64,000 bases of DNA, taken from NCBI GenBank assembly GCA_963930775.1, contig OZ005690.1, positions 14,348,411-14,412,410 of the forward strand. Reading direction: 5' to 3'. The stretch is from Cliona cf. orientalis (lineage: Eukaryota > Porifera > Demospongiae > Clionaida > Clionaidae). The position numbers and the translations under genes are program-made. The notes beneath the pieces are model-generated. The model was not told the origin of the DNA. It made no database searches and saw only the letters and a list, made by a program, of their open reading frames with translations. Of the stretch, positions 16,109 to 64,000 are shown piece after piece; within the stretch, counting starts at the first letter, position 1; each line of letters begins with the position of its first letter.

Positions 16109-16222
16109 AACCCAGCGCCGTGTCTGTTTGCAAACATTGATTCCCCGAATTTCCTGTACATTAATTGTAGTATTGCTGTGGCTACTGTACTGGCCCTTGA
16201 TCATGTGATTTCTCGAAGCAAA

Positions 16223-19551: not shown

Positions 19552-19613
19552 CTTTGAAATCTGAGGTCTGTATCAGCAGCAGTATAGCTCGGCACCGCGC
19601 GAGTTTCATATTA

Positions 19614-19626
19614 TTGCGCATGCGCG
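19614..19626. promoter_or_regulatory. TGCGCATGCGCG palindrome upstream of copy 19727
   Basis: NRF-1-like palindrome about 105 bases before the ATG, followed by the GAACCCAGC block shared with other B-type promoters. Confidence 0.5.
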
Positions 19627-19726
19627 AACCCAGCAGCTCGCTGCCGGTTTGCAAGATCCCCCGACTTTCCTAGGCATAGCTGTAGCTACTGTACAGGCCC
19701 TTGATCATGTGATATTTCGAAGCAAA

Positions 19727-25135: not shown

Positions 25136-28100
25136 ATGTGGGAAGAGAGTTGTGAATCAATCAGCGTGAGGCATCGTCGAGCAAGCGAGGTTCACACTCG
25201 TGAAGATGGCGCCTCTGCTTCTGACAGCGAGGAAGAGTTTGTATTAATACCAGAGGCAGGTCAGTACCTATTAATACATTTTTATCCACTTTATGATCAC
25301 CATACAGCTATTAAATTTTAATTCAGTGGGACCCCACTATATATTCTAGACACCCTTGGAACAGCTTTTTAAGTATCCTGATTAACGGAGGTGTCCTGCT
25401 TTCAGGGGTGTCCTTATAGAGGGGTTCCACTAGCTGTATATCCACTTTAGGATCGCTGTACAGTAGTTTATCGTCACATATTATGGTAATGATAATTTTC
25501 TTCACACACAGCGTCAGAGAAGCTCCCTCTATTGCCTCAGGGGCAACTTCCATCATCAACAGTGGGGGATGCCCCTAAGATAATTGGTTCCCCCTTGTCA
25601 ACTCGTGGAGGTGGTAGACCAGCAGATGGGGCGGAGTCTCGAGCCACCAGACCAGAGTCCGTTATTCATGATCGACCACTGGTTCCATTGAGATTGGTAA
25701 GACCACATCAACCTAATAATTGTTCTATTTCGAGCCCAACTGAGCTTTACCGTACTTAATCTAATACAATGCATGGGAAAGAAAAATTTCAATTTTGAAA
25801 AAGGAGCGTTTTCTGGTAAAGGTCATCAATCGCTCCATATATAAAATTTAATATTATAAGTATTCGTAAAATGCTAATTTCTTGCGTTAAATTGGATCAT
25901 GCATTGTATTAGATTGACTACGGTATTTTGTTTAATTCAAAGCCTCATTCACCTCCAATAATGTTATTATTCATGAAACGCTCTTGTTTGCAACTCTGCA
26001 GGTTCAAGTCGGTGGGTGACTACGGCAGCCTGGTGAGAGACCTGAGGGAGGGGAGGCTGAGGGACGTCAAGGTCAAAGGTCAAACCTACCGAGCCGTTTC
26101 TCTCGAACGTAAGTAAAATAATTGAAATGTGTAATGTTGGTAAAGTTGGTAAAATTAGCAATTCTGGCGCCATAGGCGATGGCAGGGACAATGGTAGTGT
26201 TGGTAAAGTTGGTAAAATTAGCAATTCTGGCGCCATATGCGATGGCAGTGACAATGGTGATTTTAGTAAAGTTGGTAAAGTTGGTAAAATTAGCAATTCT
26301 GGCGCCATAGGTGATGTCAGTGACAATGGTGATATTGGTAAAGTTGATAAAGTTGGTAAAATTAGCAATTTTGGCGCCATCGGCGATGTCAGTGACCATG
26401 GTGATATTGGTAAAGTTGATAAAGTTGGTAAAATTAGCAATTTTGGCGCCATAGGCAATGACAGTGACAATGATGATGTTGGTAAAGTTGGTAAAATTGG
26501 TAAAATTAGCAATTCTGGAGCCATAGGCGATGGCAGTGACAATGGTGATGTAAAGTTGGTAAAATTAGCAATTCTGGCGCCATAGGCGATGGCAGTGACA
26601 ATGGTAGTGTTGGTAAAGTTGATAAAATTAGCAATTCTGGCGCCATATGCGATGGCAGTGACAATGGTGATTTTAGTAAAGTTGGTAAAATTGGTAAAAT
26701 TAGCAATTCTGGCGCCATAGACGATGGCAGGGACAATGGTAGTATTGGTAAAGTTGGTAAAATTGGTAAAATTAGCAATTCTGGCGCCATAGGCGATGGC
26801 AGGGACAATGGCGACGTTGGTAAATTGGTAAAATTGGTACAGTTAGCAATTCTGGCGCCATAGGCGATGGCAGGGACAATGGTAGTGTTGGTAAAGTTGA
26901 TAAAGTTGGTAAAATTAGCAATTCTGGTGCCATAGGCGATGGCAGTAACAATGGTGATGTAAAGTTGGTAAAATTAGCAATTCTGGCGCCATAGGCGATG
27001 GCAAGGACAATGGTAGTGTTGGTAAAGTTGGTAAAATTAGCAATTCTGGCGCCATATGCGATGGCAGTGACAATGGTGATTTTAGTAAAGTTGGTAAAGT
27101 TGGTAAAATTGGTAAAATTAGCAATTCTGGCGCCATAGGCGATGGCAGGGACAATGGTAGTGTTGGTAAAGTTGGTAAAATTGGTAAAATTAGCAATTCT
27201 GGTACCATAGGCGATGGCAGGGACAATGGTAGTGTTGGTAAAATTGGTAAAATTGGTAAAATTAGCAATTCTGGCGCCATAGGCGATGGCAGTGACAATG
27301 GTAGCGTTGATAAAGTTAGTAATGTTGGTGCTGTACCTTTGTTTGCAGGTATTAAAATTAATTTAGCGAGATTAGCGGTTTGACTAATTTCCACTAAAAA
27401 TTGTACCTGTGAATATTAACATTTTCGAATAAATAAAATATTATTTTGAAAAAAATTGCCAAAATGAGTACCCGCTAAATGCACTATTTCCGAAATCCAC
27501 TAAAATTTGTACCCACTAATAGTTGTAGCCCTAAGGTACATTACTAACTTGTATATAATGATATTGAGAATTAACTTTTATCATGTGCACAAACTCCATA
27601 CGATACATGATATTAATTTTATGTGGATAATTGTCACAGCTACGAAATAATCGTACCTGTTCACTCATAAAAATTATCATTCTACTGCAGCTGTCCGTGT
27701 GATTGATTCCACCCTCAAGTGTTTCCTTCACATGACATTCCCCGTTTCGATCAACGACGAAATCAAATCCTCCCTCCAACCGCTTCTCAACCCCGTTGCT
27801 GTCTCTAAACGATTCATCTTTGTACCTTCAATTGAGCATCATCTACAGCTCTCTGCCATCGAAGAAACAGACTCCGCCCAAGATCAGTCGACTCCGCCCA
27901 TTTTAATAACCTTAATAACTAGTCAGCCCGAGACTTCTACTGCAAGACAAGTTGCAGAAGTTTTGAAAAATTCGCAAAATTGGTTGCAGTATGTTTTGCA
28001 GTGTGAATCAAATCCTTTCAAAAATCAGGAACTCTATCGTCATCAAAAGCATGGATCCGTTTTGCCGCTCTTTTCAATGAACTCGGGGCGTGCAGGATGG

Positions 28101-28514
28101 GGAATGGAGAATGGAATACGAGTGACGCTACTTTGCCAGGAAACTCATTTCGAGCGCATGGTGGAATTCTACAGCCTCCTCCTGCAATGCAGCAATCCGT
28201 CAAAAACTGAAGATCACGCGATATTTTCGCTCATGGACACCCCTACTAGCATCCTGGAGCTAGCACTGCACAAATGCTCGGCAGAAGATGTATCCGAGCG
28301 TTTACTGGAAACAATCAAATTGCATTTTATCATCGAGAAATTGACATCACTTGTGATTAAGTTGTGTCGAAAATTTCCCGATTGTGAGCTGACTGAAGCT
28401 GCAGGCAGTAGCAGTTGCTATGGAGACTGGATGGTGAAGGACCCGCTTGGTAATGAGCTTGTTCTTCATGATAAGGAGAAAATGGACGCTTGCAAGCAAT
28501 ATGTCGAGTACTAA
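25136..28514 (+). CDS. FAM124-like protein, four exons
   Basis: Exons 25136-25259, 25512-25696, 26009-26108 and 27691-28514 splice in phase to 410 residues; exon 3 needs the internal AAG acceptor at 26007-26008. The N-terminal third is acidic, serine-rich and probably disordered. The large last exon (about residues 137-410) resembles the FAM124 domain: 'RVIDSTLKCFLHMTFP', 'GIRVTLLCQETHFERMVEFY', 'SILELALHKC' and 'DWMVKDPLGNELVLHDK' follow the order of human FAM124A/B blocks, including the VOC-like 'D-P-x-G-N' ending. The biochemical role of FAM124 proteins is unknown. The N-terminus contains 'SEEEFVLI', which fits an LC3-interacting (LIR) pattern. Intron 3 contains a minisatellite. The start was chosen as the first ATG in the frame after a possible acceptor GGCAG at 25128. 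Confidence 0.6.
26127..27330. repeat. Minisatellite, about 17 units of 60-75 bp, inside an intron
   Basis: Units contain GGTAAAATTAGCAATTCTGG, then CGCCATAGGCGATGGCAGTG, ACAATGGT and one to four GGTAAAGTT/GGTAAAATT modules. Units are open in several frames on both strands, because the repeat lacks stops, and not because they are coding. The tract lies between exons 3 and 4 of the FAM124-like gene. Confidence 0.95.
27330..27538. mobile_element. MITE with GTACCCGCTAA / ACCTTAGGG ends
   Basis: AT-rich block with the motifs AGCGGTTTGACTAATTTCCA, GTACCCGCTAAATGCA and a CCCTAAGGTA end. A second, inverse-oriented copy of the family lies at 51951-52168. Confidence 0.6.
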
Positions 28515-35167: not shown

Positions 35168-38100
35168 CTACAAATTTATTTCTTCAGCTAGATGACTCAA
35201 TCCAACTGAAGGAGACCTGAGGGCCTCAGCTAATGCACTCCAAGTTGGTCGTTGGTGTTCTCTCAGCCACTTGGTGAGCATGGCTCTGAAACAGCGTTCA
35301 GGGTTCCCTGCATTAGCTAGTTCAATGGAGTCCAGAGAGTCTGAAGTGATGTCAAGGCCTAGTCCAAGATTGTACCATTGTGTACGGGCTTCCCATAGAC
35401 TGTCTTGGACTCTCCGTAAATCACTTGGGCCAAGGCAACCTAAGGTACAGAAATCTATGATCAAATATAAAATCACTCTATATAGTGAGCACTAGCTACC
35501 GTATAGCGGGAAATTTTCGTTGGTGCTAATTTTCATATGATTGACCAAAGCATCCTTAGAATAAATTTTCGTATTTTTTAATTTCGTATGCTTGCTGCGG
35601 GAGATTGCGCGCATGCGCAGCTAGTAGTAGCTATGTGCGGTATGCAGTAACGCTGGTATCACTGGCTTCCTTGATCGTAGCGGGGCTAATCAATATACTG
35701 ATAGCGGTCCACTGGGATCAGAAAGCTCACTCTATTTCGACGCCTAGGCAAAGAACTTGCGTTTAGCACCTGCTGCTAGCGACCGCCTGTGGCACGTATA
35801 GAGGTCAAAGGTCACATGCGAAAGGAAAAAAGTTTACACGTTCAAATTTTCGCAGTTTTTATTTTCGTATAAAGGATGGAGCATACGAAATATACGAAAA
35901 TTAGCACCATGCGAAAATTTCCCGCTATACGGTATCACGCAGTATTTGGCTATGGGATGAATGTATAGCTATAGCCTAATGATGAAATGGGATCATCAAG
36001 TTACTGTAACAGCAAGTATGGCTTTGCATATGATGTTGCTACTTACTACCAATATTGGGCTTTAATTTTTCCTTCTTATCAGCAGAATAGGTTGGGTGAT
36101 GCTGTGTTCTGGAGCTAGCTGCACTGTCTGTTGCTTGTCTATCACTGTTAGTAGGTCCCTGGCTACTTTTCTGCTTGTGCATGATAAAAATTAATTATGA
36201 TACTTATAATATTATGCTACCATTAAGTTTCTCATGAACTTACCATGTCCTCTATGATATTTGTAATAGCAAATTGGAATCCAACTGACACATTGAAACG
36301 TTCTAGCCGTCTTTCATTCAGGCTCAGAAATATATGGCCATTAATTCTGGCATCTAAACAACAATAATAAAATAAGTATTACCACAGTGTAAGGCAATGT
36401 AGCTACCTCTTAGTTTGCTGATATCCTCTTCATAGTCTCCCCCACTCAAGCTGGGGTGGTTTCCCAACCACACTGCTAGTTGCTTGTAACTCATATCCTT
36501 GCAATTGGAGAATGTTAATGATTGTGAATACAAATCCACTTGTGCTAGCGCTGGCGTCCGAGCTGTAGCTGGGGACTGTGGCTGTTGATGCACACTAACA
36601 CCAGTTTTAGTTGGTTGCTGGCTCATTTTCTGTGCACATGCATGCAATGGTATTATACCTGAATGACAATGATTGCCGGTATACTACAATGAAGTTTCTC
36701 ATGCACTTACCATGTCTTTTATGATATTCATAATGGCAAATTTAAATCCAAATGATATCCCAAATTGTGATAGAGTACTTTCATTCAGGTTCAGAAATAC
36801 ATATCCATTAATTCTGGCATCTAAGTAAAATAATATCATGATTGTGATATTGATATAATACTACAAGCACCTGTACAATAATTATAGCAATTTCTGTGTG
36901 CGTACCTTTCAATTTGCTGATATCTTGTTGATAATCTGCTCCCATAAACTGTGGATGGTTGGTTAACCAAACTGCTAGTTGTTCATAACTCATATCCTTC
37001 GAGAATATTAATGGCTGTGGAGGCACATCCACCTGTGAAGCTGGTGCCCGTAGCCACTGCACATGATCACTGGTGGGATCTAAAAATTAATATTAGCTAC
37101 AGTCTAAATCCTAGTATACACCACAGTAGTCTAAGAGTAGATTAAGTATGGACAAAGGAGAATTTCATCATTTGGAGATCAAACTATTTTACTACGTGAT
37201 TAAATTTACATCACATTAGATTGATTGTATGTACCTCTGGTCATTCTTGAAGGCATGTAAGATAGAATGACTTTATGTTGTGGTGGCTTAATCCCATTGA
37301 GGATGACCTGGTGTAAAAGTTCAGGGAAGTCTTCGCAAAGAGGGCGTGCCTTCAGTACACAGTTGGGTATCCCTCTACCCGGTTTAAAGTCATCAAGCGC
37401 TGCTTTGGTCACCTATACAAAGTGAACAATAAAATTTAACTTCTGTTAATTACAGTTTTTGATTGCACAGACCATCGGTTGAGCTGGATGAATTTCCCAC
37501 TGACCATCCATCACTTTGGTCCACTTTGCTGTGTCAAGCGCTACTTCAATAACTTTCCCTTCTATCTCAATGACCCTGTGACAGCCAGCAAGGAAACTAT
37601 CCTCAGGATAGTGCTGGCTTATATACTGCAAGTGCATAATAATCACTGATAGTAAATATGACTACACATAGAATGACTGCATTACATTTAAATGTAATTC
37701 GGTGTTCCAAATGAAGATTATGTGAATCTCGTGTCTCCGCTGATGGCTAAGACAACTACGGTAGAATAGCTGATTGTAGTACATTCTCTCTGAGTCTGGG
37801 TTCTCTTCAACAACACAAACTCCAGAGAAACCTTTCATATCTATGGCTCCGTAAAACGTGTCTGCATTAAAGCTAGCTCCTTTTAGTTGCTTGAACTTGT
37901 AGGGGAGGGACTTCTGATTACAAAATGCTCGCACTATTTTAAGCTTAGAAAGATCCTGCTTAGTACTGCAATGCTGGATCTCAACAGTGATAGGCTTGAT
38001 GAAGGTACACTGTGGCTCACAGCGCAGCCAAAAGAAGGCACTAACTAGACTAGTATTCTCAGGGATCTCATACTCCCCAGCAAGAGAAGCTTTGATGAAA

Positions 38101-41100
38101 ATAGTACATTGCTGCAAGCCTTCTGGTAAGCTGCCTGCGTGGATATGAAGCTTTAAGCCATTCCACTCAACAAGCTGACCTTGAGAAGATTGTACAACTA
38201 CGCTTGTTTCATCACACTCTTCTACACCAGGTAACTTCCATACATCTGTGAAAGAAGGATATATTATACAATGTCATGCATTTTGGCATCATAATCTAAG
38301 TTGGAACAAAGTACAATGCAGTGAGAAGACTGTAATGAGAGAGAATAATATGCCATGCCTAACTTACCAGGCAGCTGACTTATTTCTTCTGGCTGTTGTA
38401 CAAGACATTTGGATGAAGTTTTTCTTGCTTCTAAAAACTCCTCAATTAATTCTTTATCTTCCAGGCTATACTCTTTTCTCAGTCGCTCCACTTCACGACC
38501 ATGAGCACTCTCAATGTTTCTCCTATAATAATAAATAGAATAATGTGATAAATATTAGCTGCGATAGACTAGCAAACTCTTCTCACCTGTAATCAAAACT
38601 AATAGCAGGAAGTACTTTCCATGTCTCCTTACACACTGGGCAAGAGTCATCATTATTTTTCCACATGTGAGCCAAGCACAGTTGACAGAAGGTGTGTCCA
38701 CAGGAGAGGGTGCACGGATCAACATGAATATTTAGACACACTGCACACTTCGTACAATCAGCAACAACTAAAAGCAAAATTGCAACAATCGGTATTGAGG
38801 CTTTGGTTAAACATTCATCACAGTATACAGAATACAGGGATAAAGGCATGCATAATTATACTATCAGTGTTACAAAAATGATCTCAATACCTAATAATGA
38901 TAGCAAAGCATTCTTCTCTATGGATGTCAAATTTAGATCCAGTGACCAAGATTCATATGAGCTCAAATTGAACTCCTTAGCAGTAATTCCATTTTCTATA
39001 AGATTAAAAATATCACAATATAATGTAACGTAACATTGTGTATTTCTATTGTACCTCTCAACTTTTTACAGATATCATAATAGATGCCTTTGGTATTGAG
39101 GTAGAGCAGAAACTGTCTGTCGCTCATTTCAGTACTAAATTCTTCAGGAGGTTCTGTATAATAAAAAGTCATTAAAAGTGCCTGGAACACTATAATCATT
39201 ACATTTATGACTAGTTTACCTGGTATATCTAGTTCCACTTCAGCTGACATTGATACTATAGGTCGACTCGATGTTGAAATAACACACTGGTAGGTTCCAG
39301 CATACTTGCTCTCAAAACCATCAATCACCATTACTTTTGAGTTACTGTTTTTGAAATATTCATTATCCTCTATTTTCTCCTCTTCATCATTAATAATTCT
39401 TGACCACTGATACTGGAGCTGATCACTGCTCGAGGTGGTCATGAACAAGTGGTCCGTAGATAGTTCAATGAAACTGCCCAAGTCCTTTATCTGATGATCA
39501 TATGGTTCCTATAAAGATATTAACAAAAAGTGAAATTTAACAATCTGACAAAAAGCATACATTCATATTAGTTCTTCTCTTGCCACTTACCTTGAACCAT
39601 ACTATTATGGATTGTTCAGAAGTGTCCACAGTAAGTGGGTGTGGTCTGTTTTTGTCTAATAAACAATTGGCCTTAATTTCATTCTTCTTGTCATGTGGTT
39701 TGCTTTCAAATTCCATCGCATGTTCCAATTCTTCGCTTCCATGCAAGGTGCATTGACAAGCAACTGTGTACTCTTTCAGAGGTGCATTTAATGAGTTGGA
39801 AATGACTGCTCCAATATCATTCCAAACTTTTCTGCAAATGTTGCGACCATCGGTTCCGAGCTGGAATGGTTCTTTTGAGTGAGTATGAACAATGTGAATT
39901 TCATAGTATATTTTGGTTGACACTAGGGTCACAAAATATTTCTTCTGATATGCTTGAACGATAAAAGTGGCTTTATTTCTCCAATAAACTTTATTTTCAG
40001 TCATCATCTCTTCCTTTTTAAGCGGAAGTTTCCATTTTTGGTCGGATATCAATCTCGTGAAGAGGTAGCAGAATCCACCCATTGGGGAAAATCCACACTT
40101 AAAGTACATTCTGAGAGGCATGATTGAGCAGGCCTCTCCATTTCGTAGCAGCAGTTGGAGCTCCTCTTGTCGAGCGTCATTAACAGAACAGCAAGAATTA
40201 TGAACTCGGGATCAATACTTTGCGATGAATGTTCCTCATCCTTAGGCTTAGCTAAAGAATCGTCTGACTCACTGAACTGAACTGGAGCAATGATTCCAAG
40301 ATGCTGAAGTATAATTATTAATTGGTCAATCAGAAGCTGACATCCTTTATTTATCGATTTCGATTTGCAGTGTTGCTTTAATTCCCGATACATGAATATT
40401 CCCCATTTTTTCAACTGCAAGGATCGCACTGTACTGCTTTTAGTAAACGAATTGAAAATGAGTTCTGATATACCTCTGTACACGATCGAGGGATCACAGA
40501 TGACTATGCCCTCAAGTTCACGTATTTCTGGGAAGTACATTATTATTCCAAGGATCTTGTGGAGACGAGATAGCAAGCTCTGGAGCTGCGTTTCTTTGAT
40601 ATATAATTTGTTAGCGATCTGCTGACAATGGCTATATCGAAGCACTGAATGACCAGCAATTTTCATCCTGCGCAATACAATTGAGAACATATACCATGAT
40701 GGTGGTAGCTTTTCAGATTCTGGACAAGAGAGCTTATTTTCGGCAATGTCTAAAATTACATTTCGATAATCCTCTGGCCGATTACTACACCTCTCTGTTT
40801 CTTCAACACTCACTTCCAGCACCATCTTACCTTTTCCTTCATCTGCGAACACGAGGCCACTTTTAAGAAATGGTTCCACTTTCTTACAAACGATACTATT
40901 AACATCTTCCACGTGTTGAGGTTTAACTTTATCAACATGTGTACCAACGAGTAGGGCCACGTTATCTTTCGATATGGAGGAAGTGCTCGATACACAGATT
41001 AATGATTGCATTACTATGTCCATCTGTTTATACAATGTGCCAGTATGTACTTCCACAGAGGCACCTTGCTGTTGAACTGTCTCGAGAAGTTTACTCTCAA

Positions 41101-44100
41101 AGTGCTCGTATGAGAAGAAAAGAAGGTGGAGTGCTTTGCCCACCGTCACTGTAGGAAGCAATTCTAAGAATGCCCTTTGACCTCCAGTGTCAATCAAGTG
41201 ACAAATTTTCTTAATAAGTGGGATATTGGTGGGCACTTTTTCGCCTTTTCGTAGGAAACTGGTTAATTCGTTGAAATATTCTTCAATTTCTTTAGAAATT
41301 TCTTCTTTTTGGGCTGCCAGTAACTCTTCATCAATAATTTCACGATATGCAAACTTTACTGGTACTCTTTGTTCATTTTCACTCGTCCAAATCTGGCTGG
41401 CAGTGATGGCTTCAAATTGCTGATTGGTATCAAGATCAGTGGTGTATGTCTCATGTTGATCTGAATCATAATATTCTTCAGAAGGTGAATGAAGGTTTGT
41501 TGCTTGTGGTTGACCATTTTCCTCGCTGACTAATTTTGAAGGTACACTCGATTCTTCTTCCTCATGGGAAGTAGTTGAGGATTCTGAGGGCACCACACTC
41601 TCACTTTGATTTGAATCGGTCTGTGTGGGAGCTGCTTCTAAAATACGCTTGTATATGGTCAGTGCTTCTGTTGTGAGATCTTTAGTATCCGTTTCGCTGT
41701 ACAAGTGCAAATCAAGAAGCATTTCTGTGCTCATGTGGGCTGAGAGAAAATGTGACTCCGCTACTCCAGTGCTTGTTGATGTCTCGCTGGGCACAAAGTC
41801 CTTGATTGCTAATCGCTTCCAGAAGGTGGTCTTTCCCGATCGTGGTACTCCACTTAATATCATCTTGAATACTTGAAGTCGGACTTCAGCATTCTCTCTT
41901 TTTAATGCACTTTCGTAGACATTTTTATACACGTGATCCTGAAGCTCTTTGATGCCTATCAGTACAGATACATATACCTCTAGCTAGCCTTATACAATGC
42001 ATGCATATGCATGAATGGTGTGTATCAGGCTCTCTCTCTCTCTTCTCGATGGATATGAGGCTAGTAGTTAGTATAGATAACATAAGCTTCACCATCACGA
42101 TATATATCAGTAAATGTGTTTGCCACTAATGCAGTTCTCAATGCCTTAATTATTATGTATGCACAGCACAGCAAGGCCAGACAGAAATATACATTCAGTA
42201 TCATAGCCAGTATAACTGATTGATCCAAACATACTACTACTGCAGACGCTGATTGTTGCGCTATTCACTGTACATTAAGTGCACACATTTCATTAAGCGC
42301 AGGATCGTATGTGGGCTACACTGCAGCTGCTTTAAACTGTGACTGCCATATACGGTCAACAATCGATCATGATGCAGAGACTGGAGATTACAAATTAATA
42401 TTATAGTTGCTAGAGTAAAAGACTTCATACGTTCTGGTAGAGCATCTGTGCATGCTTATTCTTAGTCAATTTTTATAAAGTCAGCTAGCTACATGCAAAG
42501 ATCTCATGCAAGATAGTAGCAATATTTTTAAGCACTACTGTATGGAAGCCGAGAAGGGCAATTTCGTTTGATTCCGCAACCTGCAACCCGCATCCCGCAC
42601 CTTGCAGGATGCGGGATGCGGGATGCGGAGCTCCGCATCCCGCATCCCGCAAAGTTAACTTTTATATAATACTCTGTGATACTGTGCACAATCCTGCATG
42701 CATGAAGCCAAATTGTCAAGAAACTCTATGATGTCTCATTTTGGGCTTATAAATGTATGTATGTATGTGGCAGGTATTAGCTAGATTATAGTATAGCGTG
42801 GTAACAGGACACACACATACCTTGGCTTTTAATCAAAATTCTAGCTAACTCTCGCTGACCAATCTGTTGCAAGCACTCCACCACCCTTTTCTTAGTGACC
42901 ACTGGCTGGTCGGTGGCTGGTTGGTCAGCAATGGCTGTCTCAAAATATAAACCAACTTTGTTTAGCTTATCGATATACTCCACTAGCACAAGATTGAGTA
43001 TTCTCAGCTCATCTGCTGTCAGTGGTCTACCTAAATGGTTTGAAAATATCTTCAATTAGGACTAACTGCTTAAAGTGAAGCCTTACTTTCATTTTTGGGT
43101 TGAACTCTAAGGTCATCAAAGCAGCGATCACAGACTCTTCTAGGCTTGGATGATGGGTCATAAATGGGGAGCTTGTGCTTGGAGCAGCTATCACACACCG
43201 GAGCCAAGCATTTATTGCAGTTATGCTAAAAAAAAATCATTATAATCAATGCCATGCATGCATTGCGGATTATACTATAAGCATCATAATACATAAACAT
43301 ACCTGTCTTCTATAAGGAGTAAATTTCCTGCCACACTGTGCACATTGATCACTTGTAGCTACATGTATTGCATGAATGTGTAAATATGTGCATGTGTGTT
43401 AGTGTTGCATATCAGATCAGTTCATGTGATAATACATTGCTATAGTGGGCAGTTATCAGGGGTGCTATTTTTCATGGAATGTCAAGAAGAGGGTCCACTA
43501 TGGAATATCAATATCCTGCTAATGTCTAAACTATAATAATAGTTAGGAGGTTTCTACATGATTTAGAAGACCAAAGGGCTCTGTGTAGAATCCCGAGCAA
43601 AGCGAGGGTTCTACTGAGCCCTAAGGTCTTCTAAATCACGTAGAAACCAACTAAACAGTGTCTAACAACTTCAGATCCTAGCAACAATGCCCAAAGCTAG
43701 ACACATAAACTGCTGCCTAGCAACAACCCTAACCATAAGCAAGAATTTTACATGATTTTCTACAGAGCTTTACATGATTTTCTACAAAGCTTACATGATT
43801 TTCTATGAAGGATAGATACTTCAGTTTAACCAATCAGATCACAGTATTTGTTACAAGTAGGATCTAAACTCAGATATGTGCCAATAAAACTATATTATGT
43901 TACAGTACATAGCTGACCCAGAACAAACAATGTCATGCACAATCACTTTCTACTACTCAATGTAAGCGGGCATGGCTACGATTGCAAGCCATGCATGATC
44001 ACTTCTTTGTGCTGAAATGCAGCATACGATTTTGCGTTTACTAACTGTGCCAGTACTTTGAATATATCGGCCCATCCTCCACAATGTAATATGCACCACC

Positions 44101-44412
44101 AATGGGCTCTCTTTCACAAAGGTAATAAAAGGAATCTCTCCCAAGAGCATTATAAATACTTTCTCGACTCTATAAGGCACATTGGATCAGTCACATATTA
44201 TACTCATTGCTCAGTGATAATGATGCCCATAAAGAAACAAGTTTGCCATAGTACATTAGCCCAAATTTTGCATTCCTAGAGGGAGGGTATGAGTAATAGC
44301 TCTTTATCCACTTTATCTGAACCCACTCACCTGCCCGCTGAGCTCTCTTCAGTAGACGAAATTCAGAGCGGTTATTGCTTAATTTCATTATGAGACCTAG
44401 GCCTCTACCAGC
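35168..44412 (-). CDS. Giant FYVE - GTPase/COR - Ig - RING - ZU5 - SAM2 - Death protein
   Basis: 19 exons chain in phase: 44331-44412, 43303-43358, 43087-43225, 42821-43030, 39591-41955, 39220-39508, 39055-39153, 38891-38995, 38587-38767, 38368-38522, 37686-38245, 37473-37625, 37235-37412, 36906-37079, 36711-36820, 36407-36629, 36244-36353, 36047-36170, 35168-35439, about 1,860 residues. Domains in order: FYVE-like finger ('CAQCGRKF', 'RQHNCNKC', 'RVCDRC'); helical segment; GTPase with P-loop 'GVPRSGKTTF', 'DTGGQ' and 'GTHVDK'; COR-like region; Ig ('YAGTYQC'); small helical domain; RING ('CAVC', 'CGHTFCQLC', 'CPVC'); ZU5; UPA-like linker; two SAM domains; Death ('CFRAMLTKWL'). One base is missing near 40178-40195 in the COR region, so the frame breaks there. 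Expected role: membrane-recruited signalling scaffold and ubiquitin ligase in cell-death or immune pathways (inference). Exon 44331-44412 opens in phase 0 behind an acceptor, so coding probably continues upstream into the ankyrin exons at 48068-52838; otherwise ATG 44388 could start it. Confidence 0.8.
35497..35934. mobile_element. MITE with TACCGTATAGCGGGAAATTT ends
   Basis: The terminal repeat TACCGTATAGCGGGAAATTT continues TTCG and extends about 40 bases, with its inverse ending at 35934. It sits in the last intron of the Death-domain gene and is absent from the duplicated intron near 61300. Relatives occur at 56641-56851 and, truncated, at 49010 and 50040. Confidence 0.75.
39591..41955 (-). 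other. GTPase/COR exon with one-base frameshift
   Basis: This 2.4-kb exon holds the P-loop (about 41828-41851), an acidic insert, DTGGQ (about 41180), GTHVDK (about 40940) and a COR-like region ('LPPSWYMFSIVLRR', 'LHKILGIIMYF'). The frame reads to 'EFIILAVLL', but the homologous continuation 'ARQEELQLLLRNG' and 'LRMYFKCGFSPMGGFCYLF' is in another frame. The break lies at about 40178-40195. No GT-AG intron fits. Confidence 0.75.
42610..42651. repeat. 42-bp perfect palindrome of GCGGGAT units
   Basis: TGCGGGATGCGGGATGCGGAG is followed immediately by its reverse complement, centred on GAGCTC. CCGCATCC-type repeats extend to the left (42573-42600). It lies in an intron of the giant gene (42820-41956). 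Confidence 0.85.
43549..43652. mobile_element. Inverted-repeat element GGTTTCTACATGATTTAGAA
   Basis: GGTTTCTACATGATTTAGAA plus GACC at the left is mirrored by GGTCTTCTAAATCACGTAGA at the right, with inner AGGGCTC/GAGCCCT stems, about 104 bp. The intron 43359-44330 that contains it also has repeats of TTACATGATTTTCTA. Confidence 0.65.
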
Positions 44413-44450
44413 CTATAGCAGACACACAGATTAACTAAGCATACAAAAAG

Positions 44451-45002
44451 GTTAGGTTATACGAGAGTGCCTACCCTGCCATCGGAATATTGCACCTCGC
44501 AGCCTAGGCTATACGCGTTAATTAGGTTGCAGAAATCCAGCAATCTAGCAATCCAGGATGCAACTGCATGCTAGCAGTTTAATACACTGTGTCTACCATA
44601 CCGGCCACTAATACTGAGCGCTAGACGGCTAGTGAGGCTAGTAGCCGGGGGGGGGGGGGGGGGGGGTTGGTTGGGTTTCGGTAATCGGTTAGTGACGAGG
44701 GGTTTGGGTTTAGGCTATGGTTGTTGACCAAGGGTTAGTATGATAGTGACACGGTGTATAAAGGTGGCAAAAAACGCCATCCAGCCACGGCGAGCTGGGT
44801 TGGCAGAGCATGCAGGCTAGGGCTGGGGCTGGTGGAGCGGTGGTCATGGGTTCGAATCCAGCTTGATCTTCAGATAGACACAGTGTAATTGCTAGCATGC
44901 AGTTGTATCCTGGATTGCTGACCTAATTAACGCGTACAGCCTAGGCTGCGAGGTGCAAAATTCCGATGGCAGGTAGGCACTCTCGTATATTAAACCTAAC
45001 CT
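44451..45002. mobile_element. Foldback element with tRNA-like internal promoter boxes
   Basis: Arms of about 130-150 bases (GGTTAGGTTATACGAGAGTG at the left, its inverse ending at about 45002) flank a centre with a G20 run. Inside, TGGCAGAGCATG (44801-44812) fits the pol III A box and GGTTCGAATCC (44849-44859) is an exact B box, 37 bases apart. Flanking stems do not fold as a tRNA, so I read it as a tRNA-derived SINE or pseudo-tRNA captured in a foldback element. It lies in the intron between the FYVE and ankyrin exons. Confidence 0.6.
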
Positions 45003-45679
45003 ACAAAAATAGTATACAGAATGTTTACACAAACAAATTGACTTAATAATTGATCTATAGATACTCAGTTTGGTGTAATTACAAACCACCCTGGATCCAT
45101 CCTCATCCTTGGGCCTTTCTTCCCGAGTTCTCGATCTGCTTTGACTCATTTGAGCATGCGCAAATAATTGGCAAAGAGGCGTGGCACAATAGAGAGCACA
45201 TTATTTTCGTGTGCATGTTCAGTCAGCCAAACAGGACACATGGACACATGGACAGACGGACAGACGAACTTCCAGTGAATGATCAAATGTGGGGCTCGCT
45301 TACGCTCACCCCTAATTACTAGTGTCATGCAGGGCCTGTTTGGGGCGAGCCTGAGCTGAGCCTCTGAAGGTCTCTGTCCGAAGTAGCTGAGACTCGAAAA
45401 CTTGAACAAAACCATAGCACAATAGATCATGCAGACCACCGACACATATCCAAGCATACAATGAGAGACAGTCTCATAGTGCTATATATGTAGGCCTATA
45501 TACATCTGCACGATAGCTAGTTCCCTCGACATAGTGTCTGCCAACAGTCAAGAGAAAAGATAATTTTAAGGTACCATTAAATTGCGTGGGCGTGAGGTGG
45601 GGGATATGACACCTAAACCACATCAAAGTCATTAGTGAGGTGCATGTTGTGTAACCACGCCCTTTTAATTGCACAGGTC

Positions 45680-46300
45680 TCAGGGGTGTGGCTGCTAGAG
45701 CCGGAAGTGTTCATTTAATATCCTCCATGGACCGGAAGCCGAGCCGGAAGGGAGGGGCCAGGCCACGCCCAAAACAGCACCACCCTGCGCCTCAAGGACC
45801 ATCATTCTCAATCACGTGCCTACTAACCACCGGATGTCCACCGGAAGCCCACAATCAATCCCAATTAAAACACACAGCTTCCTCAAGGCCAAAACACACA
45901 CAAACACTCGGAGGCCGTTCTGCCACACCGCCCACGCAAGAGCTCACCTCATTTCCTGTGTGGGCGGGGTAACAACACGTCATCGCAACCACATCCGCTT
46001 CAAACCATCGTCAGCTTCCGTCCAGCCGTACGGTCCCCTCGATCGCACCGGCGTACTGTGCCTCATTAACTGACATGGCCTCACCTTTGACCTCCTGCCA
46101 CGCCCCCGAAGCCTCCTGGCCGGGTGCAAAGGTCACCACCGCATCCGGGACACGCCCACCTATCGCCGCGGCCAAGTCCCAGGCCCCGATATCCAAGCAC
46201 TGGCCCGTGAAGCCACGCCCAATCGGAAGCAATAAAACCTGCATTAACGCACACGCACACACTCCACACAGTGCCAGGAACACGCCCACATGCTTAATTA
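45680..46300 (-). other. GC-rich stretch with weak coding signal
   Basis: A minus-strand frame at 46011-46289 preceded by GTTAATGCAG reads 'LPIGRGFTGQCLDIGAWDLA' and continues without stops. I recognise no family, and CACGCCC repeats on the + strand could create the open frame. It may be a degraded exon inside the large intron 44413-48067. Confidence 0.25.
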
Positions 46301-46348
46301 GGCCTAATTAGGCTTTTTTTTTTTTTTTTTTTTTTTTCAAGGAGACCT

Positions 46349-47240
46349 GAACACTAAGCAGAAAAAAAAATTGTCCAGAAAACCACATAATACACCTAGG
46401 ATGCACAGTAGAGCCAATGCAAGCCGCAGGCAGCCTAAACTTCAATTTTGTCAAAAAGTTGGTAAAAGTCGTCAGAAATCCACATAATACACCTAGGATG
46501 CACAGTAGAGCCTTACAAAGCAAGCAAACAACCTATACTCCAATTTTGAGAATTTTTCTAAATAACGCACACCACGGGAATTTCCCGTTTTTCACGTAGC
46601 GCGTGGGCGGAAAACATTGCAAACGTATGGCTTCCCTATACAAACATATGGGAAACTTTAAAGGACCGTAACTTTAATTCTAAGGTGTGAATCAAAATTC
46701 CGCTTCCAAGAAATTTCCAGGTACGATCCATTCTGCGTGCTCATATGAATAGTTTGTCATGAATAGCTTCCCAGAGTCTCAAACATTATTTACATTAAAT
46801 CTTTTTTTTTTTTCTACTTAGTGTTTAACAAGGCGACCAGAACACTAAGCAGAAAAAAAATTGTTCGAAAACCGCCACATAGTTGAGCTGGATGCATAGT
46901 AGAGCCATACAATGCAAGCAGGCAGCCTATACATCAATTTTGATCAAAGTGGGTAATGGTCGTCACGTTAATGTGCGCGCGTGGCCCCGCCCCTCACGTA
47001 GCGCGTGGGCGGAAAACATTGCAAATGCATGGCTTCCTATACAAACATATGGGGTAACTTCAAAGGGCTGTAACTTTAATTCTAAGGCGTGAATCAAAAT
47101 TCCCCAGGATCAAATCTCTAGTTTCGACCCATTCTGCGTGCCCATGTAAAAATTATCCCCCCAAGTGCTCCCAAACCCCCCATGAATTAGATTATTTATT
47201 TAATTATTTAAATTTGCTTTTTTTTTCTACTTAGTGTTTA
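46349..47240. mobile_element. Two tandem copies of a 400-480-bp inverted-repeat element
   Basis: Each copy begins AACACTAAGCAGAAAAAAAA and ends TTTTTTTCTACTTAGTGTTT (46349-46829 and 46845-47240). Shared inner blocks include CACGTAGCGCGTGGGCGGAA, ACAAACATATGGG and TAACTTTAATTCTAAGG. The first copy has an internal repeat of CACATAATACACCTAGGATG. A T19 run (46319-46337) precedes it. Confidence 0.75.
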
Positions 47241-47599
47241 ATTAATAATTTTAAGTCGTTGCGGTTAATAGTTAAGAAAGAATGCTTTGATCTTGCTTTG
47301 AAGTGGGCAATTACCGGCCTTTTCTTCAGGGGCCACTTCCGGTCGCTAATTACACGCGCATAATCATCCCTGGCCGATTCTGGACACGCCCACCTTCGAC
47401 CAAAAGCACTCGTATGGCCTCTTCGGCCACGCCCCTTCACGATTCGCTAATTGAATTAGCCATTCCTGACGCTCACGCCCACGCAATTAAATGGTACCTT
47501 AATTTAGCCTGCCTCCGTATATTGTCAGAGTCAGTTAGCAGCACGTCTATCACCGTTTTATCGCGTTCTTAACTGGTCCTTGCGCTGTTGAGCTGACGA

Positions 47600-48060
47600 C
47601 GAGCTCTGTCTCGCTCTCTCCTCCTAGATCCTTTGGAGTCCGGCACGGTATAGCTTGATACCAACGATAGCTCCTAGATCCTATAGGCCTAGCTTACTTG
47701 ATCAATACATGCAGGCACGAGTGTAAATTTGCAATTCACTAAATTAGAACGGCGTATATACGGCGCGTAGCCCAGGCATGAGAATGCGCAATAGAATATT
47801 TCGCGCTTATGTCCATAGAGCCATGCTGGGCATATACTTCGCGTGACCGAATAATAATAATAATAATAATATATACAATTCGCGCACAGCTGTACCGTTT
47901 ATGTGGGGCTCGCTCAGGCTCGCCCCAATTATGAAGGCATTAGCACATTCGATCAAATGCTCAAGAAAGTAGATTGTCTGTATTTCTTGATCTAGTGAGG
48001 TGATTCGGCATCACATTATTTTAATATTCATATTGGCTTGACGCTTCATTGCATTACAGT
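47600..48060. other. Intron sequence, nothing recognised
   Basis: No exon, RNA gene or clear repeat apart from an (ATA)n run near 47850 and a GGGGCTCGCTCAGGCTCGCC block also seen near 45290. Confidence 0.5.
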
Positions 48061-48067
48061 GCTGTAC

Positions 48068-51000
48068 CTTATTGACCAGGGCTCCACTCTGCAACAAAAG
48101 TCTAATGACTTCAGGATGACTTTCTATGGTGGCCTCGAACAACGCTGTTCTACCAAACTATAATAGAGACACATATAGGGTAAGGCAAATTCATTAACCC
48201 CTCCCACTGCATGTACAAATGCACACTGAATTCGAAGTAAGTCAGTCATGTTGGTATAAATCTCTCCCTGGCAGATAGCCTGCAGCACTCTCCATGCATC
48301 AGTGACCCACACACTGTGATGAACATGCACACAGCTAGCTACACAAAATGCCCCGCCCACCCACCCAGCCGCCAGCCACCTTCATCATTCTAAACTGAGC
48401 ACATAATTCTGTGCCTGAGCACTGTGTGATGGCTGGCAATATTAGTGGTTGGGCTACAAAATTATTTAATTTTTGTTGCCTCATGTGGCAATGAAAATAT
48501 CAATAGCAAAATTTAAATTTTGATTTACATAATAAGGAGTGAATGGTACTAGTGAGGTGGTTCAGTACTCACATTGTTTTTATCATTCACGTCGGCATGA
48601 GACTGCACCAGTAGCTTGACCACTTCAAGGTGGCCATTCAAGGATGCCGTGTGAAGAGCTGTGCTGCCATACTGTGGGGAAAACAGTATAAAAGCAATAG
48701 TGACACTTATCACATATCAGTATCGTCATGTTGGTATAAATTTCTCCCTGGCAGATAGCCTGCAGCACTCTCCATGCATCAGTGACCCACACGCTGTGAT
48801 GACCATGCACATAGCTAGCTACACAAAATTCCCCACCCACCCAACTGGCCGCCAGCCACCTTAATTGATCTAAACTGCCTGGCACCCCATGTATGTGGTA
48901 TACTACATAGTCAGAAATTATTACTGTCAAAAATGTGGATGGTATAATGTTAATGTTGTGAATTTAATTTGGTTTGCCTGCATACATGTCATATACCATA
49001 ATTATTATTGCGGGAAACTTTCGAGGGAGAGAACTTTCGTGGATCGATACGAAGGGAGCATTTACTTTACAGAGTAAACTTTTGCGGATGGCTATAAAAT
49101 CGCAAAATTCGTGAATTTCAAAGTCTTCTCCCCCTGCTATACGGTATAGTATAGGTTACACACCGAGGTGTAGGTGTAAATTAGCATTTACGAATTCTCA
49201 TAACGTTTATATACAAGCAATATTATTGACGACCTTAACCAGAAAACCGCGCATTTGAAATTATTTTTTTCCATGCATTGTTACAGTATTAGATTAAGTA
49301 TGGTATTAGGGATTTTTTTAGCATCTGAGAATAGCAAACAAATAGCATAATTTACCTACCCCTACACCCAACCCACCGCCCACCTTAATTGCTCTAAACT
49401 GAGCACATAGTTCTGTGCCTGGTGCACCATGTGGTAGCCAGTAATATTAGAATTATTAGTGGTTGGGCTACAATCAAAACCAATTTTAAATTTTTGTTGC
49501 CTCATGTGGCAATGAAAATATCAAGAGCAAAATTAATAATATTTAAACTTTCGTAATAAGGAGTGAATGATACTAGTGAGGTGATTCAGTACTCACCTTA
49601 CTTTTAACATTCACGTCGGCGTGAGACTGCAGCAGTAGCTTGACCACTTCAGGGTGGCCATTCAAGGATGCATCGTGAAGAGCTGTGCTGCCATACTGTG
49701 GGGAAAACAGTATAAAAGCAATAGTGACACTTATCACATATCAGTATTGTCATGTTGATCTAATTTCTCCCTGGCAGATAGCCTGCAGCACTCTCCATGC
49801 ATCAGTGACCCACACACTGTGATGACCATGTACACAAAATGCCCCACCCACCCAACCGGCTGCCAGCCACCTTAACTGATCTAAACTGCCTGGCACACCA
49901 TGTACGTAAATTATCCCTACTGTAACATCATTCGTATACTAACCAGCCGATAATCGGTGTTGGCCGATAATTGGCGGCCTACGCTACATAGCTGGAAATT
50001 ATTATTGTTCGCCTGCATACAGGAATGTCATATTGTACCATATTGCAGGAAACTTTCGAGGGAGAAAACTTTCGTGGATCGATAGAAAGGGAGCATTTTA
50101 CAGAGAAAACTTTTGTAGGTGGCTATAAAATCACAAAATTCATGAATTTCAAAGTCTTCACCCCCTGCTATACGGTATAGTATAGGTTACACACCGAGGT
50201 GTAGGTGTAAATTAGCATTTACGAATTCTCATAACGTTTATATACGAGCAATATTATTGACAACCTTAACCAGAAAACCACGCATTTTTTCAAAATTTTT
50301 TTCCATGCGTTGTATTAGATTAAGTATGGTATTAGGGATTTTTTTAGCATCTGAGAATAGCAAAAAATAGCATAATTTACCTACCCCAACACCCAACCCA
50401 CCGCCCACCTTAATTGCTCTAAACTGAGCACATAGTTCTGTGCCTGGTGCACCATGTGGTAGCCAGTAATATTAGAATTATTAGTGGTTGGGCTACAATC
50501 AAAACCAATTTTAAATTTTTGTTGCCTCATGTGACAATGAAAATATCAAGAGCAAAATTAATAATATTTAAACTTTCATAATAAGGAGTGAATGGTACTA
50601 GTGAGGTGATTCAGTACTCACCTTATTTTTAACATTCACGTCGGCATGAGACTGCACCAGTAGCTTGACCACTTCAAGGTGGCCATTCAAGGATGCCGTG
50701 TGAAGAGCTGTGCTGCCATACTGTGGGGAAAACAGTATAAAAGCAATAGTGACACTTATCACATATCAGTATCGTCATGTTGGTATAAATTTCTCCCTGG
50801 CAGATAGCCTGCAGCACTCTTCATGCATCAGTGACCCACAAACTGTGATGACCATGCACATGCATAGCTAGCTACACAAAATGCCCACCCAACCAGCTGA
50901 CCATCTTAATTGATCTAAACTGCCTGGCACACCATGTATGTGGTATACTACATATATAGACAATATTATTGTCAAAAATGCATGTGGTTGGGAAAAAATT

Positions 51001-52838
51001 ATAATGTTAATGTTGTTTTAATAATAATTTATTATTTGGTTCGCCTGCATACAGCAAACGTGTTTTAAGCCAAGTGTGTAGTTCTATGGCAATAATGGTA
51101 TGGTATTTTTTAATATGATTGCCATAAACAGGACTCAAATTAATTCTAGGATTATAATTTTAATTTTTTTGGCCCTTAAATTTAATGCTATCAACAGGTC
51201 CTATAATTATTATTATTATTACTAATTTTTTGCGGGTACTAATAATTGCGGATTGGCCAAAGAATGCAAACTTTTGTACCTGCTAACATCAGCAAGAGTA
51301 TTCTACTCTTGACATTAGCCATAATATGCACCATGGAACATTACAATAATATGTCGACCCTGTATATATCATTTCCTCATACAGCAAACGTGTTTTAAGC
51401 CAAAAATGTACCTGCTAATAATAATTATGACCTGCTCTGAGAAAAGGGACCACTCGTGATTTCATTTTCCAATAATAGTTAAAATGTGGGGAAAATGAAT
51501 TTTTTCATTTTATTCTACTACCAGAAAATGTAGAATTTTGGCTTCATATTGATGATATGCTATGTTTATGTAGATGCAATATGTAAATGATCGTTATGGG
51601 TGCAAATAATTGCTCGGACACATACAATTAAATATGCACATTTTCTGAAAGTCGAATATATCTACCTGCGTGTATAAAATTGGTCATAACTCAGCTTGTG
51701 ATCAATATTTTTCATGAAATTTGCATCATTTGATTCAGCACACACAAACTCAATTTTTATGAAATATCCCAAGTGGTCCCTTTCCTCAGAGCAGGTCACA
51801 ATTGTCACCATATGATCAAGAAATGTACCTATCATTCTCAAAGGAAGAAATGTACCTATCATTCTCATGTGTTTGGGATAAAAGGTAGAATTATTAACAT
51901 TGATGCATACCTGGTCCAATTATTCTCAAAGTTATTCCAGCGTACATACCTTAGGGCTACAATTATTTGCGGGTACAAATTTTAGCGGATTTCGGAAATA
52001 GCGCATTCAGCGGGTACTCATTTTAGCGATTTTTTTCAAAATTAACATTCTATTTATTCGAAAAATTATGTTGAAAAAATTGATATTCGCGGGTACAACT
52101 TTTAACGAAAATTAGGCAAATCGCTAATTTCGTTAAATTTAGTACTCGCAAACAAGTGTCCTTAAGGTAATTTCCCTCCCCTAGGCCTAGCAGTGACACA
52201 TGTACAAATCCTCTGCTGTAGCTCTATGGTAGATTGATTGCCACAAACAGGACGGAATTAAGACAATATCATGCAGTAACACTGACTTTGACTTGGTGCC
52301 AACACCGTATACACAATACTTGCATTCATTACTAGCCACGAGATTATAATTATTAATTAATTATTAAAGAAGGTAGGTCTCAGTCTGTGGAGCCATGTAC
52401 CACCAAGCCCACTCATGTCTCAACTGCTCTACTATGTAGCTGCTTTATAATTAGAGCCTTACTTTCGTAGCCAAGTCCACCTCAGCACCGCGTTGGAGGA
52501 AAAGGTCAGCAAGATCCGTCCTTCCATAGTAGCTGACCAGACAAAGTGGATGGCCGCCCTCCTACAGTGAAATAGCATTGGATAAATAGCCATAGCTACT
52601 TAGAGCAGACCACAATAGTTGTTGAGTGGTGTACCTTATCATGGATATTCAGCCTAGCTCCTCGATCTAGTAGGGCATCAAACTGACTGATAGGAGTACT
52701 CTTGCATGACGTCTCGTCACGACATAGCTGAAGTAGCTCCTCCTCGTCCTACAGAATTAATTTATTTGTAAACATGTGATAACTATGACAGTTATTTAAT
52801 ACAGTAGCTATTATTACCTTAGTTAATTTTTTTGCCAT
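48068..52838 (-). CDS. Ankyrin-repeat exons, probable 5' part of the giant gene
   Basis: Seven phase-0 exons: 52818-52838 (ATG, 'MAKKLTK'), 52635-52748, 52463-52561, 50622-50720, 49597-49695, 48573-48671, 48068-48157. They give 207 residues with about six ankyrin repeats, including three near-identical 33-residue repeats ('YGSTALHTASLNGHLEVV'), one repeat per exon. The last exon ends 'QSGALVNK' before GTACAG with no stop. The next minus-strand exon that fits in phase is the FYVE exon starting at 44412 ('AGRGLGLIMKLSNN'). I therefore infer one ANK-FYVE-GTPase-Death protein of about 2,070 residues. Alternatively it is a separate short ankyrin gene whose end I miss in the 3.7-kb gap. Ankyrin repeats bind partner proteins; N-terminal repeats before FYVE are known, for example, in ANKFY1. 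Confidence 0.72.
48540..51000. repeat. Tandem genomic units of about 1,025 bp, each with one ankyrin exon
   Basis: The exon plus flanking intron sequence repeats at 48573, 49597 and 50622 (steps of 1,024 and 1,025 bp), including GAAAACAGTATAAAAGCAAT, TCTCCCTGGCAGATAGCCTG and GTTCTGTGCCTGGTGCACCA blocks. A partial unit extends to 48240-48400, beside the 48068 exon. Two units share a truncated MITE (49010-49146, 50040-50175), so it was present before duplication. Confidence 0.9.
51001..52460. other. Intron between ankyrin exons, repeats only
   Basis: Contains the doubled block CAGCAAACGTGTTTTAAGCC (51053 and 51383). GACCTGCTCTGAGAAAAGGGACC (51430-51452) recurs inverted as GGTCCCTTTCCTCAGAGCAGGTC (51775-51797), and a related GACCTGTTCTGAGAAAAGGG lies at 55680. 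No exon recognised. Confidence 0.55.
51951..52168. mobile_element. MITE with ACCTTAGGGCTACAATTATT end
   Basis: Begins ACCTTAGGGCTACAATTATT and ends CCTTAAGGT, with GCGGGTACAAATTTTAGCGG and related blocks inside. An inverse family member lies at 27330-27538. Confidence 0.65.
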
Positions 52839-63900: not shown

Positions 63901-63991
63901 AAGCCATTCCACTCAACAAGCTGACCTTGAGAAGATTGTACAACTACGCTTCTTTCATCACACTCCTCTACACCAGGTAGCTTCCAGACAC
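60990..63991 (-). CDS. Second ZU5 - SAM3 - Death gene, 5' part outside the window
   Basis: Exons 63435-63991, 63202-63357, 62945-63125, 62521-62685, 62343-62452, 62194-62266, 61885-62061, 61701-61810, 61516-61630 and 60990-61261 join in phase. Domains: ZU5 ('KLHIHAGSLPEGLQQCTIF'), a UPA-like linker ('LDDFKPGRAIPNC'), a SAM domain ('DMSYEQLAVWLTNHPQF' plus the 'LSLTESRLERSGVSLGF' half), an incomplete SAM first half ('VGANYQQAISKMRG'), a further SAM and a Death domain with the same 'CFRAMLTKWLREHKRPTW' core. No frame breaks. The first exon has an acceptor and no start, so coding continues beyond 64000, probably into RING and GTPase exons as in the paralogue. ZU5-Death combinations are known from PIDD and UNC5, where Death domains assemble signalling complexes. 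Confidence 0.85.
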
Positions 63992-64000
63992 CTGTGAAAG

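Follow-up and report, generated by a model that had tools for sequence, protein, structure and literature searches.

Introduction

Roco proteins have been sorted into three classes: those with leucine-rich repeats (LRRs) only, those that combine LRRs with a kinase, and DAPK1 with its Death domain (PMC6337361, in the accessible portion of that article). The LRR-ROCO genes of brown algae place each repeat in one symmetrical exon, change in exon number, show positive selection at sites of the ligand face and have been proposed to encode immune receptors (Teng et al. 2024, PMC11378527); as described in the accessible text of the same report, they consist of LRR-ROC-COR only, are built from 72-nt phase-2 exons and come with evidence of alternative splicing. 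In Amphimedon, proteins that join TRADD-N to death-like domains have undergone a large expansion (PMC8195603, likewise in its accessible portion). Here we describe a gene family of the sponge Cliona cf. orientalis, one copy of which, P0, lies on the minus strand at positions 52838–35168 of the stretch of DNA analysed (‘the window’; 64,000 nt, C2:14348411–14412410 of a 216.8-Mb, 149-contig assembly, G000). Its order of domains, Ank-FYVE-Roc-COR-Ig-RING-ZU5-SAM-SAM-Death, fits none of the three Roco classes as these appear in the accessible portion of PMC6337361. In keeping with an earlier, sequence-only reading of the window, which knew of no described protein with this order, we found no description of such a protein on searching for the architecture or for sponge Roco/receptor genes; a search of titles and the opening lines of abstracts, with subscription papers mostly outside it.

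A multicopy family with a common domain order

We rebuilt P0 by hand as 26 minus-strand exons with GT-AG borders at 25/25 introns, in agreement with the sequence-only reading, which had chained about 26 such exons. The exon phases also fit from exon to exon as that reading held, but not within the large Roco exon, the sole place at which the frame is broken (see below). Upstream of P0, on the same strand, we see a tandem paralogue that had gone unmentioned; this copy, P1, occupies extended coordinates 79611–60990 (the window numbering continued past 64000), such that the window contains only its 3′ part, ZU5 to Death (60990–64000, identified by paralogue comparison). P1 is made up of 32 exons, with GT-AG at 31/31 introns, and runs for 2,238 residues without a stop in the same domain order as P0, with one additional SAM-like exon. 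P1 and a further copy, P2, are the two nearest paralogues of P0.

Across the genome we count 29 Roco loci, drawn from 78 match rows (27 at ≥47% identity, plus two on contig C11; the second piece of one locus, matches to neighbouring exons and more remote relatives are left out of the count). The other domains were located in separate searches and are counted among the matches listed, weak rows omitted, absence here meaning absence at the sensitivity of the search. The helical exon that precedes Roc, the Ig and the RING are each found on the correct side and strand at 26/29 Roco loci, Ig and RING at the same 26; ZU5 accompanies 23/29, FYVE 14/29 and SAM 13/29. With an intact tandem copy in P1 and collinear Roco-Ig-RING at 26/29 loci, a single gene of the order given above is well supported, and P0 belongs to a real, conserved, multicopy gene family of about 29 copies.

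That several ordinary neighbouring genes (ankyrin, Roco, RING, ZU5-Death) have merely been chained together by chance is, in our view, very improbable: whilst the last ankyrin intron of P0 extends for 3.7 kb, and relatives of ZU5 and Death also occur, by coordinates, away from Roco loci among the matches listed, the Roco-Ig-RING series is collinear on a single strand at those 26 loci, and in P1 the intron between ankyrin and FYVE spans 213 bp, those from FYVE to Death span 57–300 bp and the phases agree across all 2,238 open codons.

Domains along the chain

From the N-terminus onwards (all exons on the minus strand), P0 opens with a short start exon, MAKKLTK (52818–52838), conserved as MAKELTE in P1 and conserved also in P2, followed by two exons of an N-terminal ankyrin cap (52635–52748, and 52463–52561 by paralogue comparison), both of which are kept in P1 and P2. 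Next come three single-repeat ankyrin exons of 99 nt in phase 0 (50622–50720, matched by Pfam Ank; 49597–49695 and 48573–48671, by repeat comparison), a 90-nt ankyrin exon (48068–48157, also by repeat comparison) and a last, degenerate ankyrin exon (44331–44412; phase 0 in, phase 1 out), which matches P1 68859–68787 in position, phase and flanking splice sequence. The P1 counterpart, AGQTPIQIANNGNYSKIVSLLKTA, can plainly be recognised as a final repeat and passes in phase 1 into the FYVE exon; in P0 the phase is kept and the flanks are similar, the repeat itself having degenerated. As the final repeat exon of P1 joins FYVE directly and in phase, the ankyrin-FYVE join is sound for the family, which backs the join across 48068–44412 previously drawn from phase alone. 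A candidate exon between ankyrin and FYVE (44169–44046, SRESIYNAL...) was dropped, since its phase does not fit and it has no match in P1 and surroundings; the exon-like open stretch, SRESIYNALGRDSFYYLCEREPIGGAYYIVEDGPIYSKYWH (window 44046–44169, minus strand), lies in the ankyrin-FYVE intron of P0 and is unmatched in P1.

Of the domains named by the sequence-only reading, a Pfam scan of the whole P0 model places Ank_2 (4.9e-51), FYVE (2.7e-11) and the RING (zf-C3HC4, 7.2e-7) over cut-off, but COR-A, Roc, ZU5 and SAM_2 below it, and Death passes only when its exon is scanned alone (27.3 bits, 4.1e-6, versus 20.3 bits in the whole model). FYVE is spread over two exons (43303–43358, Pfam; 43087–43225, Pfam and paralogue search), scores over cut-off in P1 as well (2.8e-11), and presents eight Cys in both copies on inspection. 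The conserved helical exon, LD (42821–43030), follows; by eye it could be taken for a death-effector domain, but it stays unassigned, as Pfam, a PDB profile search and AlphaFold (pLDDT, the predicted local confidence score, 58) returned nothing usable.

The Roc-COR exon (39591–41955), with P-loop GVPRSGKTT, DTGGQ and GTHVDK, was assigned through its paralogues and a fold model. In an alignment of 26 Roco rows (A1; L033, L042 and L046 omitted from the 28 loci other than P0), Pfam reports COR-A in 25/26 and Roc in 23/26 at E ≤ 0.01; G40 and K41 (G1), D255, G258 and Q259 (G3) and T338 and H339 (G4) are invariant, and D341 nearly so. The predicted fold matches RocCOR in a clear fold comparison; the same alignment, run as a sequence profile against the PDB, gives a weak RocCOR match only (0.039). 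The distance of ~220 residues from P-loop to G3 is unusual for Roc and partly disordered in the model. We also observe, at Roco exon residues ~62–207 (window 41953–40184), a long, variable, low-confidence stretch between P-loop and G3 that appears acidic by eye. By these sequence and model tests, tandem Roc and COR domains together with the G1, G3 and G4 motifs make the protein a member of the Roco family, and the ‘GTPase switch’ of the earlier reading is borne out as far as its key residues and predicted fold.

The Ig-like exon (39220–39508) reaches 0.011 with Ig_3 in P0, below cut-off; among the paralogues I-set attains 3e-7 at best and Ig_3 appears at E ≤ 1 in 21/26, and a PDB profile matches part of contactin-4 (3.8e-13). 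Roc/COR and Ig, proposed from P0 but sub-threshold in it, are hence both supported by the paralogues. After the Ig lie two exons of a small domain (39055–39153, SAM-like by eye only; 38891–38995, from the exon chain and paralogue search), for which (39153–38891) no Pfam family rises above noise, and then the RING exon (38587–38767), found by Pfam in P1 also, with the TRIM21 RING as its best PDB match. Its C3HC4 zinc ligands are complete on inspection in the three copies read, making the suggested ubiquitin ligation plausible. A charged exon (38368–38522), a coiled coil by eye, completes this part of the exon chain.

In the ZU5-like exon (37686–38245) Pfam scores 18.9 bits, short of its cut-off of 21, and the two UPA-like exons beyond it (37473–37625 and 37235–37412) are named from position only. 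HFS is the self-cleavage motif of PIDD type; among 121 ZU5 rows (120 of 255 matches, plus P0) the Phe is present in 120 and the Ser in 118, but the preceding His in just eight, so that the motif is mostly absent. Of the two proposed SAM domains, one (36906–37079 and 36711–36820, by Pfam) is a weak SAM_2 match, 8.6e-4 and slightly below cut-off, whilst the other (36407–36629 and 36244–36353) has no Pfam match and is recognised by likeness to the first, to which it is 67% identical. A linker exon (36047–36170, paralogue comparison) leads to the Death domain exon with its stop codon (35168–35439), whose P1 counterpart is 89% identical. P2 has no Death exon of this type; the exon in its place is 26% identical to the P0 Death over 78 residues (BLASTP E 4e-5), with no Pfam match and no notable PDB match, and in our interpretation encodes a different Death domain. 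Pfam scans of both P0 and P1 list no kinase, NACHT, NB-ARC or paracaspase.

Variation in the ankyrin array

The middle ankyrin repeats are each encoded by one 99-nt phase-0 exon, of which P0 has three (plus the one of 90 nt), P1 seven (alongside a 96-nt and a 105-nt exon) and P2 at least eleven. Across 21 ankyrin exons of P0–P2 (cap, 90-, 96-, 105-nt and last exons excluded), variation peaks at position 10 of the designed ankyrin repeat protein (DARPin) numbering, where 12 residues are seen, and is also high at positions 13, 5, 2 and 3. As the ligand face we take the seven positions at which designed ankyrin proteins are randomised, a set to which position 10 does not belong; it comes from DARPin design, but the repeats had already been inspected before the test. 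At these seven positions the ratio of non-synonymous to synonymous differences per site (pN/pS) is 2.13 (bootstrap 1.34–5.15), versus 0.55 (0.46–0.65) elsewhere.

In a tree of the repeats that includes their intron flanks, those of P1 and P2 interleave (the labels of the three genes change 7 times, a number as low being seen in 27/200 shuffles), and those of P0 form one recent local expansion. Mean repeat identity hardly differs within genes (0.834, 79 pairs) and between them (0.826, 131 pairs).

The frame break in P0 and selection on the family

The sequence-only reading had proposed a single continuous product of about 2,070 residues, which the P0 assembly does not yield: its 26 exons total 6,206 nt, leaving a remainder of 2 on division by three, and when read in frame the first stop falls after 1,004 residues, inside COR. 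Within exon 41955–39591 one frame stays open to beyond 40,184, from where the next one is open as far as the exon end, with two extra bases near 40,185 (the break lies within 40175–40192) relative to the aligned P1 and P2. A translated search of the other Roco loci finds a single frame through this place in 28/28 (L047, a second stretch of locus L033, not being counted among them); the split occurs only in P0. A hidden intron is rejected as the cause, because the paralogues show no change of frame here. The break is either of recent origin, a minor allele or an error, and with it standing in the assembly, P0 making the full product is not supported.

A slight balance of probability, as we judge it, favours P0 being a dying or dead member of an otherwise functional family, a real 2-nt insertion leaving it with at most a truncated ankyrin-FYVE-Roc-COR fragment. 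Besides the confinement of the break to P0 and the degeneration of its last ankyrin exon, the same exon, stop-free in 26/28 other loci, carries one in-frame stop in L042 and two in L046; loss therefore happens within the family. The ratio of non-synonymous to synonymous substitution (dN/dS) over the block of small domain, RING and next exon is 0.52 and 0.59 in the P0 pairs versus 0.37 for P1–P2, and that of the Ig is 0.92 for P0–P1. A database protein, P0109 (644,983-base contig), terminates at the identical break, though its contig may have been built from the same reads, and a sequencing or assembly error might account for the break. Nor do other blocks beyond it clearly show lost constraint (COR-B at 0.24 for P0–P1, 0.37 for P0–P2 and 0.23 for P1–P2; ZU5 at 0.15 for P0–P2), and GT-AG is kept at every P0 intron.

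More generally, 24/25 of the dN/dS blocks compared between P0, P1 and P2 fall at 0.15–0.59, that P0–P1 value for the Ig being the remaining one; the core of the protein is under purifying selection, and most post-break blocks of P0 are still constrained relative to P1 and P2. Synonymous divergence (dS) varies widely from block to block within a pair (UPA 0.11 for P0–P2 and 0.82 for P0–P1; Death 0.20 for P0–P1), a spread that points to exchange between copies.

Relatives in public databases

A protein search with model residues 230–2068 returned no relatives among 7,022 candidates; a profile search of public proteins with the Roco alignment recovered at least 166 among up to 7,999 candidates. 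Among the best 120 of these, 14 are ≥98% and 18 are 90–98% identical to copies of this genome, rows that we interpret as belonging to this species or to other haplotypes of it. A further 19 of the 120, at 68–74% identity to P0, fall into two clades next to the one of this genome, the pattern that a second species with expansions of its own would be expected to give. For these second-species Roco rows, 8/14 contig sizes recur among the ZU5 matches (120 of 255), compared with 8/18 for rows like this genome and 4/17 and 1/14 for two other groups; Roco and ZU5 hence appear linked in the second species, in so far as equal contig sizes indicate it. The domain order itself was read in this genome only.

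The 18 rows at 90–98% identity, a level at which other haplotypes or individuals would be expected to lie, lend the family a polymorphic look of the kind that self/non-self (graft) recognition might call for in place of pathogen recognition. We consider this improbable, the domain set being that of a cytosolic protein (no search aimed at a secretion or membrane part was made).

Neighbouring genes and other relatives in the genome

Between P0 and P1 (54430–56500, minus strand) lie exons that by eye resemble AP-2 alpha adaptin, and these are seen again between P1 and P2 (extended ~80000–84800, minus strand); since they recur in both intervals, a second gene seems to belong to the tandem unit. 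Next to the cluster, at window 857–22713, Pfam identifies a series of TRAF-like genes, with zf-TRAF open reading frames (ORFs), some with a RING, on the plus strand at 857–2191, 2847–3266, 3270–4115, 5377–6360, 13677–14474, 16070–17440 and 19565–20950, and a MATH ORF on the minus strand at 21250–22713. Death-domain signalling commonly has TRAF adaptors as its partners. Pfam also identifies a FAM124-domain ORF (27651–28511, plus strand) and a 1,058-residue ORF with a terminal PHD finger (9162–12335, plus strand).

Elsewhere in the genome, additional large families of ZU5-like exons (~38–55% identity) occur on C11 at 8.9–9.4 Mb and on C7 at 1.1 and 2.9–3.2 Mb, with no Roco nearby among the matches listed, and C8 5.7–9.6 Mb holds dozens of the Death-domain matches listed, several of them in open frames of ~800 residues.

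Discussion

The explanation that we favour, with somewhat better than even confidence once its mechanism is included, is that P0 belongs to a multicopy family of large Roco GTPases working as putative receptors. The ankyrin array, assembled from interchangeable one-repeat exons, would bind a ligand (microbial, self or danger-related); binding would shift the Roc-COR GTPase between states and alter its oligomerisation; the RING might then ubiquitinate neighbouring proteins, with the ZU5/SAM/Death end assembling a death-fold signalling complex. The sequence-only reading had likened the layout to a self-contained immune or cell-death sensor, a suggestion strengthened by the tandem expansion, the change in repeat number, the ligand-face change and the different Death-like exon of one copy. 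These features, like the family itself, its domain order, the GTPase fold and the purifying selection on the core, are seen in the sequence; ligand recognition, coupling through the switch, ligase activity and an immune role are inferred.

Saying this, a number of our own observations weigh against this explanation. The whole-protein Pfam scan of P1 is without Death, ZU5, SAM and Ig at E ≤ 0.05, and has Roc and COR-A below cut-off. UPA is absent from both the Pfam scans and the PDB profile search of P0, so that of the ‘ZU5-UPA-like’ region claimed earlier there remains a sub-threshold ZU5. PI3P (phosphatidylinositol 3-phosphate)-binding FYVE domains carry the motifs R(R/K)HHCR and WxxD; here, on inspection, the former reads RRQHNCN in P0, RKQYYCH in P1 and RNCH in P2, which weakens the proposed lipid/endosome targeting even though the zinc finger is there by score. 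A Death exon of the same type lies near 4/29 loci and a cap near 10/29, three of the latter at a doubtful 45–83 kb (among the matches listed); as both are found near few loci, P0 and P1 are the only copies in which the full order has been traced base by base. P0 itself is broken in frame, with its last ankyrin exon degenerate. The ligand-face signal is equalled by 3.7% of 20,000 random seven-position sets and by 1/32 rotations, which makes the concentration suggestive, not strong, and a tree of the exons alone clusters the repeats by gene (4 label changes; 0/200 shuffles as low).

A non-immune scaffold, be it an apoptosis/autophagy regulator like DAPK1 or a trafficking/cytoskeletal adaptor, tandem-expanded for reasons other than recognition, seems to us rather unlikely, though deserving of consideration. 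DAPK1 has ankyrin repeats before Roc. Together with Roc-COR and Death, such repeats make up the DAPK1 set minus the kinase (Roco grouping after the accessible portion of PMC6337361), and purifying selection across the core would suit a scaffold. Against it stand traits typical of recognition families: 29 loci, unequal ankyrin number, ligand-face change, mosaic copies, a changed Death-like exon and the apparent expansion in a second species.

Taking the receptor explanation further, we tentatively propose, at short of even confidence, that these proteins represent a class of animal cytosolic immune receptor whose switch is a Roco GTPase in place of NACHT/NB-ARC, whose exon-shuffled ankyrin sensor is diversified on its binding face, and which combines a built-in RING with an exchangeable Death domain; an independent counterpart of brown-algal LRR-ROCO, separately expanded in at least two lineages. 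If so, some animals would have evolved, on the brown-algal plan, a large family of single-chain sensors uniting GTPase switch, ubiquitin ligase and death-domain output. Such a family would offer a natural model in which to study how binding through repeats is linked to GTP state and output in Roco proteins such as LRRK2 and DAPK1. It would also serve to test how repertoires diversify where antibody-like systems are absent.

Set against known systems, the family shares features with several and coincides with none of those compared. Like MALT1, it joins Death to an intracellular Ig, but it has no paracaspase in the Pfam scans, a single Ig and an otherwise unrelated order. With PIDD, UNC5 and UNC5CL (ZU5-UPA-Death proteins) it has in common a ZU5-like region followed, here after inserted SAM domains, by Death, and differs from them in its sub-threshold ZU5, undetected UPA and mostly absent HFS. 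Animal NOD-like receptors (NLRs) likewise pair a cytosolic NTPase/adaptor layout with death-fold domains, repeats, lineage-specific expansion and diverse architectures; with no NACHT/NB-ARC in the P0 and P1 scans, a Roco GTPase as its switch and a built-in RING, the protein is not an NLR, because it has no NACHT, yet it probably works like one. Death-fold domains, lineage-specific expansion and diverse architectures are also features of the TRADD-N expansions (PMC8195603, accessible portion). As in DAPK1 (third Roco group in the accessible portion of PMC6337361), there is Roc-COR, a C-terminal Death domain and no LRR; unlike DAPK1, P0 and P1 show no kinase in their Pfam scans, which sets them outside the DAPK1 group, and add FYVE, Ig, RING, ZU5 and SAM in a family of 29 loci. 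Brown-algal LRR-ROCO, as described in the accessible text of PMC11378527, offers the same combination of Roc-COR with a repeat sensor, one repeat to each symmetrical exon and a varying number of exons, whereas here the repeats are ankyrin and not LRR, their exons are 99 nt and phase 0, and the GTPase comes with FYVE, Ig, RING, ZU5, SAM and Death domains in addition.

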